From Acidimicrobiia bacterium (lineage in GTDB: Bacteria; Actinomycetota; Acidimicrobiia; Acidimicrobiales; MedAcidi-G1), in assembly GCA_012959995.1 (NCBI GenBank), contig DUCC01000009.1, positions 45,910 to 109,909 on the forward strand: a stretch of DNA of 64,000 nt, read 5' to 3'. The notes beneath the pieces were generated by a model. That model had not been told where the DNA came from, searched no databases, and saw only the letters and a list, made by a program, of their open reading frames with translations. A program made the translations under genes and the position numbers. Every line of letters starts with the position of its first letter. The stretch's first letter is position 1. Below are positions 13,139 to 17,448 of this stretch, in pieces.

Positions 13139-14239
13139 TTATTCTGGCGGCGAATCTTGACGATCGCTCCGCGAAGGGAGGTCTACCGCCACCCGAGGCC
13201 GCTCTAAGCGAGTGGAGCGAAGTTGCCCGCAAGCGGCATCAATCTCGGTGCCTCGGGTGCGACGGATGGTGGCGTTAGCTCCCAAGTTGGTGAGATGCTC
13301 AGCGAACTTGCGCACCTGCTCGGGCGAAGAACCCTGAGAAGGCCACCCGGGGGTTGGGTTGAGGGGAATCAAGTTAATGTGCGCCCCCAGCGAGCGGGCA
13401 AAACTGGCCAATTGTTGAGCATCAACGGGCTGATCGTTTACGTCGGCAATAAGCGCCCACTCTAGAGACAAGCGTCGCCCCGTACGGTCAAAATGGACTC
13501 GACAAGCGTCCGCTAATTCAGCCAGCGGCCAGCGTTGGTTTATGGGCACCAATTCGTCACGGAGGTCATCGTTGGCGGCATGAAGCGACACGGCCAAGTT
13601 GACGGGGAGTGCTTCTTCGGCCATGCGTAAAATGCCCGGGACCATGCCCACAGTGGAAACGGTTATGTGGCGTGCCGAAAGACCCAAGTCGCCGTGTAGA
13701 CGTTCCACGGCCGTCCAGGTGCGGTCGAAGTTAGCCAAAGGTTCACCCATGCCCATAAAGACCACGTTAGAGACCCGACGGTCGCCGGCTTCTTGTTGGG
13801 CTCGTATGACCTGTTCGACCATTTCTCCGGCGGTGAGGTGCCGGTCGAACCCCATTTGCCCAGTGGCGCAAAACCCGCAACCCATGGCGCAGCCCACTTG
13901 GCTACTTATGCAAACCGTGGAACGCTTTTGGTAATGCATGAGAACGGTTTCAATGAGCGCATCGTCGGTCAACCGCCATAACCATTTAATGGTTTCGCCC
14001 TGGTCGCCTACCGAGCGGACATCTTGGCGGAGAGCGGCCGGCAGAGCGGCACGGAGTTCTTCTCGCAAGTTTTTTGGCAAAGTCGAAATCTCATCGGGGT
14101 TCACCAAGTCTTTGTAGAGGCCTTGCCAAACTTGGTCTACTCGGTAGCGGGGGAGGTCGCCGAGCAGTTCGGCCAACTCGGCTCGACCGTGGTCGTAACG
14201 GGTAACCGGAAGTTGCCGGCTGGTTGGGTTCTCGGTCAC
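13139..14239 (-). CDS. rlmN: 23S rRNA (adenine2503-C2)-methyltransferase
   Basis: Radical-SAM dual-specificity methyltransferase that makes 2-methyladenosine at A2503 of 23S rRNA and A37 of some tRNAs. The 366-residue protein has the radical-SAM cluster motif Cys-x3-Cys-x2-Cys in GCAMGCGFCATGQMGF (about residues 116-131), the SAM-binding stretch NVVFMGMGEPLANFD, and ITVSTVGMVPGI. The C-terminal catalytic Cys needed for the methyl-enzyme intermediate is in GTEIDAACGQL. An accessory N-terminal domain (residues 15-90) is present. It overlaps mshD by 4 nt. Confidence 0.96.
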   Translation of the reverse strand: MTENPTSRQLPVTRYDHGRAELAELLGDLPRYRVDQVWQGLYKDLVNPDEISTLPKNLREELRAALPAALRQDVRSVGDQGETIKWLWRLTDDALIETVLMHYQKRSTVCISSQVGCAMGCGFCATGQMGFDRHLTAGEMVEQVIRAQQEAGDRRVSNVVFMGMGEPLANFDRTWTAVERLHGDLGLSARHITVSTVGMVPGILRMAEEALPVNLAVSLHAANDDLRDELVPINQRWPLAELADACRVHFDRTGRRLSLEWALIADVNDQPVDAQQLASFARSLGAHINLIPLNPTPGWPSQGSSPEQVRKFAEHLTNLGANATIRRTRGTEIDAACGQLRSTRLERPRVAVDLPSRSDRQDSPPE

Positions 14240-14982
14240 CGGACGATCCGTTGGTAGGAGCGGTTAACGAGTTCTCGTTTGAAACCCATGGCGCTGTAAA
14301 TGCGGTTGGCGGGCCGGTTGTCGGACTCCACGTAAAGCATTGAGTGTTTGAGCCCTTGTTCGGTCATCCAGTTGAGGCCAGCCAAAGTTAATTGGGCCCC
14401 GTAGCCCTGGCCATGCAGATCGGGGTCAATAGCGATGGCGTAGATTTCGCCGCGTGCCGGTTTCAGATCGTGGTGAACCTTCACCCAACAAAAACCTGCG
14501 ACCTCGCCATCTAGTTCCCAAAGTAAAAATCCTTCCGGGTCGAACCAAGGTTCAGACATTTTTTCGGCCAACTGCTGGGCCGTCATGTCGCTTTGCTCGG
14601 GGTGCCAAGCAAAGGCTCGGTTGTTGATGTCTAGGAAGTCCTCTTGGTCTTCGTCGGTATAGGGGCGGGGTTCTAAGGTGCTGAGGGGCGCAGGCAGCGG
14701 GCGTTCTAAGCGCCACAGATCACGTACCGGGGTGAACCCGGCGGCCAAAGGTACTTGGTCGCTTTGCAAGGTGGCGTTTTCGATCCAGTATTCCAGCCGG
14801 CCGCCTCCGTAGTTCATTAAGGCCTGCCCGGCGGCTTCAAGCATGCGTTGTTGGCGGGGTTTGTCTTCTTCGGGTACGACAAGGTGAACCAGCCATGCAT
14901 TGCGGGCTGGTTCAAGAGTGGCTGAGTCGGTGCCGTCAGAAACGGTGAGGGTTTGAGCGTCGTCTGGGGGAGCATTGTCCAT
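14236..14982 (-). CDS. mshD: mycothiol synthase-like GNAT acetyltransferase
   Basis: Mycothiol synthase acetylates Cys-GlcN-Ins in the last step of mycothiol synthesis, an actinobacteria-specific thiol. The 248-residue protein has the second, active GNAT domain with NNRAFAWHPEQSDMT (about residues 128-142), a signature of MshD. It also has the acetyl-CoA loop IAIDPDLHGQGYGAQLT and the C-terminal ESDNRPANRIYSAMGF. It is shorter than typical MshD (about 300 residues), and its N-terminal GNAT half is reduced. ATG 14982 was chosen with TAACCT 8 nt upstream; a longer frame to 15195 would run into nth on the other strand. It overlaps rlmN and is divergent from nth. Confidence 0.8.
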   Translation of the reverse strand: MDNAPPDDAQTLTVSDGTDSATLEPARNAWLVHLVVPEEDKPRQQRMLEAAGQALMNYGGGRLEYWIENATLQSDQVPLAAGFTPVRDLWRLERPLPAPLSTLEPRPYTDEDQEDFLDINNRAFAWHPEQSDMTAQQLAEKMSEPWFDPEGFLLWELDGEVAGFCWVKVHHDLKPARGEIYAIAIDPDLHGQGYGAQLTLAGLNWMTEQGLKHSMLYVESDNRPANRIYSAMGFKRELVNRSYQRIVR

Positions 14983-15034: not shown

Positions 15035-15676
15035 ATGGCACTTCCCCGATCTCCAAAAGGCCGAGCCCGCGTCACTAACCAGCGTTTATCTGAGGAATAT
15101 CCGGATGCGCTTTGTGAACTCGACCATGAAAATCCGTTCCAACTGTTGACCGCTACCATTTTGTCGGCGCAGTGCACCGATAAGCGAATCAACATGGTGA
15201 CCCCGGCATTATTTAAGCGTTACCCCACGCCAGAAGATTTAGCGGGCGCTCGCCCGGCGGAGTTAGAAGAGATCATCCGGTCGACTGGTTTTTATGCCGC
15301 TAAGGCCCGCAGCCTGTTGGGAATGGCTCAACGTTTGGTGGAGGTGTATGACAGCGAAGTGCCGGGAGACATGAAGGATTTGGTTTCTTTGCCGGGGGTC
15401 GGGCGCAAAACAGCCAATGTGGTAAGGAGCGTAGATTTAGGGCTCCCCGGATTGCCGGTAGATACTCATGTAGGCCGCTTGGCTCGCCATTTGGGCTTGA
15501 CTACCGAAACCGACCCGGTGAAAGTTGAAAGAGAACTCAACCCCATGGTGCCGGCTGATGAACGAGGTTCGTTTAGTTTGCGTTTGATTTTACACGGGCG
15601 GCGAGTGTGCCCCAGTCGCAAGCCGCGATGCGAAGAATGCGTGTTGAACGATTTTTGCCCCGATTCAACCGCTTGA
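15035..15676 (+). CDS. nth: endonuclease III (DNA glycosylase/AP lyase)
   Basis: Base-excision-repair glycosylase for oxidised pyrimidines. The 213-residue protein has the helix-hairpin-helix LPGVGRKTANVV (about residues 113-124), with the catalytic Lys in GRKTA, and the catalytic Asp in VDTHVGRLARHLGL (about residue 138). The C-terminal [4Fe-4S] ligands have the canonical spacing Cys-x6-Cys-x2-Cys-x5-Cys (CPSRKPRCEECVLNDFC). ATG 15035 matches the family start; a frame starting at 14975 would overlap mshD. It is followed by a 6C-like sRNA with its own terminator. Confidence 0.95.
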   Translation: MALPRSPKGRARVTNQRLSEEYPDALCELDHENPFQLLTATILSAQCTDKRINMVTPALFKRYPTPEDLAGARPAELEEIIRSTGFYAAKARSLLGMAQRLVEVYDSEVPGDMKDLVSLPGVGRKTANVVRSVDLGLPGLPVDTHVGRLARHLGLTTETDPVKVERELNPMVPADERGSFSLRLILHGRRVCPSRKPRCEECVLNDFCPDSTA

Positions 15677-15742
15677 GGCCGGTTGTAAAAAAAATAGCTT
15701 CGGCGTCTTTCTTTGCGCAGTATTTTGTATTACTCTAAATGT

Positions 15743-15827
15743 TGCCGGGTCCCGCCACCCGGCCGCGAGGGAGGGTCCCGCCACCCACCTCGCCCGCTTG
15801 ACGCCCTTCGGGGCGTCAAGCCTTTTT
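15743..15827 (+). ncRNA. 6C-like small RNA: two C-rich-loop hairpins plus terminator
   Basis: Two adjacent hairpins display the same loop, CCCGCC. Hairpin A pairs 15744-15750 (GCCGGGT) with 15757-15763 (ACCCGGC). Hairpin B pairs 15765-15770 (GCGAGG) with 15788-15793 and 15773-15776 (GGGT) with 15783-15786 (ACCC), with a small internal loop. A strong rho-independent terminator follows at once. This is the architecture of the actinobacterial 6C RNA, which has two stem-loops with C-rich terminal loops; here each loop has one G among the Cs. A TACTCT box at 15731-15736 would place the 5' end near 15743, giving an RNA of about 85 nt. In Mycobacterium the 6C RNA acts on mRNAs through its C-rich loops. 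Structure is seen directly; family membership is inferred. Confidence 0.65.
15796..15827 (+). terminator. rho-independent terminator with UUCG tetraloop
   Basis: An 11-bp stem GCTTGACGCCC (15796-15806) and its exact complement (15811-15821) enclose the stable tetraloop TTCG and are followed by C and TTTTT. It ends the 6C-like RNA and any read-through from nth. Confidence 0.9.
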
Positions 15828-15856
15828 ACGGCCTGTTTTCGTATTGGGGGCTGCGG

Positions 15857-16048
15857 TTAGCGTTGGCGCCCTAAGCGGCTGAGTTCACGTTGGGCAGCTT
15901 GTAGGTGGCGTTCTACCTCTAAGAGCGTGGAATTTTCGTCGGTTCGGTCGCCGTCGGGGTTTTCCATTAGCGCACTGATGCGTAGTGCCAAAGCGGTTAT
16001 TTGGGTTTCCAACGAAGAAAGTTCACCGGGAGAAGGAAGCGTGGCCAT
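15857..16048 (-). CDS. small hypothetical coiled-coil protein
   Basis: A 63-residue open frame rich in Glu, Leu and Arg, with heptad-like spacing from LSSLETQITALALRISAL to EVERHLQAAQRELSRLG, so a short coiled coil is likely. It lies alone between the 6C-like RNA terminator and hisD, divergent from hisD. I do not recognise a family. ATG 16048 has GACTTGACCT just upstream and no clear Shine-Dalgarno. It could be spurious, but amino-acid composition and third-position bias look coding. Confidence 0.5.
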   Translation of the reverse strand: MATLPSPGELSSLETQITALALRISALMENPDGDRTDENSTLLEVERHLQAAQRELSRLGRQR

Positions 16049-16143: not shown

Positions 16144-17448
16144 GTGCTTGCTCGCTTAGATCTCCGTGGCTCTACGGCCCCCCTGGATGAAGTCTTGCCG
16201 CGTCCCGGATTGGGTGAGGGCAACCCGAAAGAAGCCGTTCAAAATATTTTGGCTCAGGTAAAAACAAACGGCGACGATGCTTTGCGTGAACTCACCGAAC
16301 GCTTTGACGGGTGCCGGCCCTCTTCGCTGGTCATCGGGCGTTCCGAGATGGAAGCAGCCTTAGGTCGAGTGCCCGAAGATTTTCGCCGGGCGCTAGAAAC
16401 CGCGGCCAAGAATATTCGCCTCCACCATCAAGACCAGCAAGAAAAAAAGCACACGGTGTCTCGTCAAGGCTTGACCGTTGAGTCCTGGGCGCAACCGGTG
16501 GAGCGTGCCGGATGCTACGTACCGGGGGGCCGCGCCGCTTACCCATCCACGGTGTTAATGACCGCCATCATTGCCCGAGTAGCAGGGGTAAAAGAATGTG
16601 TGGTGTGTGTGCCGCCGGGCCCCGATGGCTTGGTGCCCGACGCTACCTTGGCCGCCGCTGCGGTAGCGCAGGTAGATGTAGTGCACCCGGTGGGAGGCGC
16701 TCAAGCCATTGCGGCGTTGGCCTACGGTACCGAATCGGTAAAACCAGTCGAGGTCATTGTGGGCCCCGGCAACGTGTATGTGGCTTTAGCTAAGCGAGAG
16801 GTGGCCGGTTTGGTGGCGGTCCCGTCGGCTTTTGCTGGCCCCTCGGAGGTGGTGGTGATAGCCGATGAGAGCGCTCCACCCGAATTGGTAGCTATTGACC
16901 TCATGGTGCAGGCCGAACACGGACCACAAGGACTGGCTTGGCTTATCACTTGGGACTCCGCAACGGCAGACCGAGTGGACGAAGCGTTGCAAGAATTGTT
17001 GATCACCGCCCCGCGTCGGGCCGAAATTGAGTCAACGCTACAAGACGCTGGTTACTGCGTTTTGGTTGATGACCCCGCTCAAGCCTTAGCGGTGTCTGAC
17101 GCTATAGCCCCCGAACACTTAGAAATAATGACCACGGAGGCCGATGTTTTGGCGGCCCGGGTGCGTCATGCCGGTGCTATCTTTTGTGGACCATGGTCGC
17201 CGGCTTCGCTGGGCGATTACGTCGCCGGGCCTAGCCATGTTTTACCCACCGCTGGGACCGCTCGTTTTTCTGGCGCCTTGACGGTTAGCGATTTTACTAA
17301 AGAGATGCACATCGTGACGGCCAGCCCGGAAGCTATTGAAAAGCTCGGACCGACCGTGGTGGTGTTGGCGGAAGCCGAGGGTTTGGATGCTCACGCCGCT
17401 TCGCTACGCATACGTCAAGATTTGTTGATTGGTCAAAACGATGACTAA
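16144..17448 (+). CDS. hisD: histidinol dehydrogenase
   Basis: Zinc- and NAD-dependent enzyme for the last two oxidation steps from L-histidinol to histidine. The 434-residue protein has AGCYVPGGRAAYPSTVLM (about residues 121-138), PVGGAQAIAALAYGT, and GPGNVYVALAKREV. The Zn ligands are in MVQAEHGPQG (about residue 258) and the catalytic Glu-His in APEHLEI (about residue 325). GTG 16144 is the start. It is first in the hisDCBHAF cluster and overlaps hisC by 8 nt. Confidence 0.97.
   Translation: MLARLDLRGSTAPLDEVLPRPGLGEGNPKEAVQNILAQVKTNGDDALRELTERFDGCRPSSLVIGRSEMEAALGRVPEDFRRALETAAKNIRLHHQDQQEKKHTVSRQGLTVESWAQPVERAGCYVPGGRAAYPSTVLMTAIIARVAGVKECVVCVPPGPDGLVPDATLAAAAVAQVDVVHPVGGAQAIAALAYGTESVKPVEVIVGPGNVYVALAKREVAGLVAVPSAFAGPSEVVVIADESAPPELVAIDLMVQAEHGPQGLAWLITWDSATADRVDEALQELLITAPRRAEIESTLQDAGYCVLVDDPAQALAVSDAIAPEHLEIMTTEADVLAARVRHAGAIFCGPWSPASLGDYVAGPSHVLPTAGTARFSGALTVSDFTKEMHIVTASPEAIEKLGPTVVVLAEAEGLDAHAASLRIRQDLLIGQNDD

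Follow-up and report, generated by a model that had tools for sequence, protein, structure and literature searches.

The region between the nth and hisD genes of an Acidimicrobiia bacterium contains two adjacent hairpins with the same C-rich loop, and the question is whether they belong to a small RNA gene and, if so, to which family this RNA should be assigned. The window analysed here is the whole stretch of 64,000 nucleotides, and positions are given in its numbering. In the preliminary description, the element was presented as a 6C-like small RNA with two C-rich-loop hairpins, either a divergent 6C member or a related C-rich-loop regulator that would target G-rich ribosome-binding sites. 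The hairpins and their loops were confirmed and a small RNA was supported, while membership in 6C was rejected and targeting of ribosome-binding sites was not supported. The element represents a new predicted small-RNA family, which in all likelihood would work like the known C-loop RNAs, and not a member of 6C.

Structure and Covariation of the Element

The predicted small RNA is about 85 nt long and occupies positions 15743–15827 of the forward strand; its start is predicted, and its end is the U tract. Hairpin 1 (15744–15763, forward strand) consists of the stem GCCGGGT/ACCCGGC and the loop CCCGCC at 15751–15756. In hairpin 2 (15765–15793, forward strand), the loop CCCGCC at 15777–15782 is closed by the upper stem GGGT/ACCC, which is joined to the lower stem GCGAGG/CCTCGC through ga on the 5′ side and a single a on the 3′ side. 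The intrinsic terminator (15796–15827, forward strand) comprises an 11-bp stem with a UUCG loop (15796–15821) followed by U5 (15823–15827). The common loop closed by GGGT/ACCC in two adjacent hairpins and the UUCG-loop terminator straight after them, both reported earlier, are thus read directly in the sequence. The minimum free energy of the element is −53.7 kcal/mol versus −35.0 ± 3.4 kcal/mol in dinucleotide shuffles (z = −5.5), and none of the 200 shuffles was as good; the MFE and centroid folds contain the identical three hairpins. The word GGGTCCCGCCACCC, which comprises the loop and its closing stem, has exactly two copies in the 2.03 Mb genome, both inside the element.

A covariance model, R1, was trained on six relatives with the window sequence left out. 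It finds the window element at 15743–15828 with 67.3 bits (E = 9e-12), and a second model, R2, scores the same element at 82.9 bits. R1 recovers all 28 elements in the set of related loci and gives no other match in those loci, nor in the loci without the element. When the collected sequences of relatives were folded independently, the same three hairpins were obtained. In the alignment of 28 sequences, 97.9% of the pair cells are kept and both sides have changed in 22 of the 29 pairs; in the alignment of 55 rows, the respective values are 97.6% and 24 of the 29. Among relatives, both-side changes are found in six of the seven pairs of hairpin 1, six of the ten pairs of hairpin 2, and all 12 modelled pairs of the terminator. 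The same intergenic region of relatives, the comparison proposed earlier, therefore does contain covarying stems with C-rich loops. A model-based alignment was used, since the loops differ by one base in length and MAFFT misplaced hairpin 1 for this reason. As this alignment is fitted to the covariance model, the controls with slid and shuffled structures weigh more than the raw pairing percentages: the covariation score of the 55 rows is 0.574, compared with 0.184 for shuffles and no more than 0.112 for slid structures, none of the 500 shuffles reaches any of the measures, and the slid structures fall to 34–44% paired. One of the 55 rows (alignment A5) is an incomplete second match in the L122 locus, which does not materially alter the counts.

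Distribution in Acidimicrobiales

A DNA search of 61 relatives showed that, in several genera of the same family, the majority of genomes carry the element; wherever its flanks could be seen, they were nth on one side and hisD on the other. Inspection of the regions 3′ of nth in named contigs added more lineages, among them Microthrixaceae and Candidatus Microthrix. Large genome samples were searched with strict filters, so that the counts from them are lower bounds: in the class sample, a match was found in 39 of the 247 genomes, one per genome, and 38 of these genomes belong to many families of the window's order, Acidimicrobiales. The 39th match comes from a genome that is 85% complete, in which it adjoins mshD and nth on a short contig. 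Within the own family, 24 of the 40 genomes have a strong copy.

The element was not found in genus g6, nor in six of the eight genomes of its own genus (G001 and G003–G007), several of which are small. A more sensitive search of 26 genomes that were earlier negative or weak added one clear case. The absence from some, often smaller, genomes points to lineage-specific loss, so that the element is not essential. A wider spread in the phylum was also considered and rejected: the candidates from other classes (L150–L155, E from 4e-4 to 0.009) are strong terminators only, in which the two loops are absent.

The element is absent from Rfam and from the open-access papers searched, which yielded no small RNAs of Acidimicrobiales. 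The order is abundant and mostly uncultured (marine, freshwater, soil, and wastewater habitats), and its small RNAs are almost undescribed. The family is single-copy and strongly covarying and has a fixed locus; as its covariance model is already available, annotation and testing can begin immediately.

Genomic Neighbourhood and Putative Promoter

The upstream neighbour, nth (15038–15676, forward strand), encodes endonuclease III with the Pfam domains HhH-GPD and EndIII_4Fe-2S, and its stop codon lies about 65 nt before the RNA. The nearest relatives of its product are proteins of MAGs of Acidimicrobiales and Acidimicrobiia. Next to it is a gene of a GNAT acetyltransferase (14236–14982, reverse strand; Pfam Acetyltransf_1), putatively mshD (mycothiol synthase). 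The downstream neighbour is hisD (16144–17448, forward strand; Pfam Histidinol_dh, E = 1.7e-148). Between the RNA and hisD, there is a small convergent ORF of 63 aa (15857–16048, reverse strand) without a Pfam match, which is a neighbour and not a part of the RNA; this ORF (LLEVERHLQAAQRELSRL) is conserved in all loci read. The mshD-like gene is the neighbour kept in all families, and its tblastn matches adjoin nearly all tested elements. In six loci (L130, L136, L141, L143, L145, and L149), no adjacent nth match was found, and the RNA is still beside mshD.

The -10-like hexamer TACTCT at 15731–15736 (forward strand) is the presumed promoter element of the small RNA, and with the usual spacing it would place the RNA start at the first hairpin, near 15743. 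The preliminary description already made this prediction, which gains weight from comparison: TAnnnT starts at −17 to −12 from hairpin 1 in about 45 of the 57 related loci, whereas all other positions rarely have it. Within −22 to −3, it is present in 46 of the 57 loci versus 13 expected, and the highest count among 500 shuffles was 23. This conservation supports a separate promoter of the putative small RNA. A convincing -35 element was not found in the window; it is visible in some relatives. In six loci of one genus (L008–L012 and L038), palindromes GAAC-N2-GTTC or GAACC-GCTTC cover the presumed -35 region, about 20–35 nt before the -10, and possibly serve as an operator for the small RNA. 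Given that the place beside mshD is kept without nth and that the -10-like TAnnnT is conserved, the element most likely constitutes a small-RNA gene in its own right, about 85 nt long, that would be transcribed separately, not the tail of nth.

Conserved Loops

While the stems vary, hardly any change is seen in the loop core CCGC(C). In hairpin 1, the columns of the CCGC core contain C in 53/53, C in 53/53, G in 52/53, and C in 53/53 rows; in hairpin 2, CCGC is present in every row, four of which are one column off in the alignment. Hairpin 1 typically has the loop UUCCCGCCA and reads U-UCCCGCC-A, and hairpin 2 typically reads GG-AUCCGCCG-CC or UCCCGCC. The first loop is seven nt long in 39 of the 53 first hairpins of relatives and six nt long in the window. 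UCCC lies wholly inside the loop in approximately 32 of the 53 first hairpins; in the window, its U belongs to the closing pair. Taken together, the loop columns of both hairpins give one common motif, GG-N-CCGCC-R-CC. As the stems that carry it are unrelated, this suggests a single kind of partner that is read twice.

Comparison with 6C RNA

When all Rfam 15 families were compared with the window, the only matches at the gathering score were two tRNAs, and none of them was on the element; its best sub-threshold match was BjrC1505, with 19.4 bits versus the 50 needed. The 6C model, RF01066, whose use had been advised earlier, gave no match at E ≤ 10 on 15600–15950 and none at E ≤ 0.5 on 12 diverse relatives carrying the element. 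A 6C-like locus (L001:1501-1585, or G000:C9:6201-6285) was found on the same contig, about 40 kb before the window start and 55 kb from the element. It scores 39.8 bits, and the corresponding locus of a near relative, G002, scores 46.2 bits; both values are below the 47-bit cut-off. The loops of the former are ACCCCCCC and ACCCCCC (C7 and C6 loops), and R1 does not match this locus. The loop word of the new RNA, UUCCCGCC, is also present in the second stem of this 6C-like locus. In the class sample, believable 6C candidates were found in only these two genomes, and two other weak matches resemble C-loop terminators.

In what the cell is offered, the element resembles 6C/B11: both are small actinobacterial RNAs with two hairpins exposing C-rich loops. 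However, the loops of 6C run to at least six C, whereas the loop core of the element is CCGCC; the element also has a separate third hairpin as a terminator, a different locus, and no match to the covariance model. The presence of a separate 6C-like locus in the genome means that the element is not the 6C RNA of this genome, and the assignment to 6C was rejected, as was the corresponding part of the preliminary description.

Possible Mode of Action

Actinobacterial small RNAs of known action pair with G-rich RNA through C-rich loops (PMC10470900). The 6C RNA of M. abscessus, B11, represses eccB4 via a G6 tract in its leader unless both loops are mutated, and either C-rich loop suffices to repress a G-tract mRNA (PMC10470900). 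LhrC of Listeria has three UCCC sites and pairs in trans (PMC4132741). LhrC and other UCCC-motif RNAs (RsaE, RNAIII, FsrA) have a repeated C-rich seed, often UCCC, in single-stranded loops, together with a terminator (PMC4132741); a repeated C-rich loop and a terminator are also present in the element. Unlike the element with its CCGCC seed, these RNAs are from low-GC bacteria and have a different structure with mostly AU-rich surroundings, and no start-codon enrichment was found for the complement of the element's loop.

By analogy with these RNAs, base pairing would most likely be the mode of action. We consider it probable that the element is an independently transcribed RNA of about 85 nt with its own terminator, which presents the same C-rich loop twice and acts in trans by pairing. 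The RNA would be transcribed from its own promoter and ended by its own intrinsic terminator; the two rigid hairpins would present the common loop with the CCGCC core; and either loop could pair with a restricted number of mRNAs at G-rich sites that contain GGCGG, altering the translation or stability of these mRNAs, as in the case of 6C/B11 and LhrC.

The earlier proposal that G-rich ribosome-binding sites are the targets is unsupported, since the start codons of this genome show no enrichment of complementary sites: in a weak test, the pattern GGCGGGA-N4-9-ATG occurs 24 times versus 21 for the reversed pattern. At the gene starts of the window, GGCGG is present in three of the 62 start regions versus three in the reversed control, and the duplex energies are equal to those of shuffled loops, with no excess complementarity, these tests also being weak. 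Complementarity to start codons did not reveal a target mRNA in the own genome or among the window genes. In two relatives with higher GC, G009 and G010, the counts are 57 versus 31 and 38 versus 18; this twofold excess may reflect codon composition only.

More broadly, we tentatively propose that the element belongs to a hitherto undescribed family of small RNAs with bivalent C-loops, which spans the order and could replace the rarely detectable 6C in Acidimicrobiales and have a regulon of its own. The data suggest that RNAs with a pair of equivalent C-rich loops have also arisen independently of the 6C family; if this is true, C-loop bivalency would be a recurring design in high-GC bacteria.

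Alternative Explanations

It is highly improbable that the element is a divergent true member of 6C: two hairpins with C-rich loops in an actinobacterium would fit, but RF01066 finds neither the element (E ≤ 10) nor 12 diverse relatives of it (E ≤ 0.5), the G of the loop is kept in 52 of the 53 first hairpins, the third hairpin is a terminator, and the genus has 6C-like loci of its own. The element could also lack a role in trans and merely form the 3′ end of the nth transcript or act in cis as an attenuator for the his genes, given that it lies 65 nt past the nth stop codon, ends in a terminator, and would be included in any read-through from nth. This is very unlikely, because the element stays where nth is missing, has its own conserved -10-like hexamer, and is separated from hisD by a convergent ORF, and because a plain terminator needs no two invariant loops upstream of it.

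A protein partner of the putative RNA would account for the same pattern of conservation as pairing in trans. An RNA that serves as a scaffold or sponge for a protein other than an ANTAR regulator, bound through the two identical loops, would agree with the motif GG-N-CCGCC-R-CC on two different stems, the invariant upper stem pair, and the lack of enrichment of complementary sites at starts; this explanation is doubtful, as there is no candidate protein and the known actinobacterial C-rich loops pair with G-rich RNA (PMC10470900). A separate explanation, also unlikely, is a dual hairpin that titrates a protein, most plausibly as a decoy for an ANTAR regulator of the PdtaR type; comparable RNAs are PPE1-5′ in M. 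tuberculosis and those acting in trans in Enterococcus and Listeria. The titration of ANTAR regulators by RNA is documented (PMC8131098), and the element shares with these RNAs the adjacent small hairpins and G at loop position 4 (both window loops and 52 of the 53 first-hairpin loops); the two loops in the window have six nt. ANTAR proteins (PF03861; E = 4.1e-17 in G000) are encoded by almost every genome of the order, often in a single copy, but equally in genomes with and without the RNA. For recognition by ANTAR proteins, loop position 1 must be A, which is required for binding and induction (PMC3369931, PMC8164766), whereas this position contains C in 47 and A in three of the 50 first hairpins and is always U or C in the 50 second hairpins; that is, A is found in only three of the 100 loops. 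The strictly kept bases C2, C3, C5, and C6 are those that ANTAR RNAs vary, the first loops are mostly seven nt long (39 of 53), and the second hairpin does not overlap with the terminator, in contrast to ANTAR-target RNAs. The element was therefore rejected as an ANTAR-target RNA, and pairing in trans is the reading that we favour.

In many genomes (e.g., G002:C24, G009:C24, G014:C60, and G055:C34), the contig with the small RNA also carries a gene encoding a PdtaR-like ANTAR protein at a distance of about 17–25 kb, which is probably explained by old synteny of the his region.
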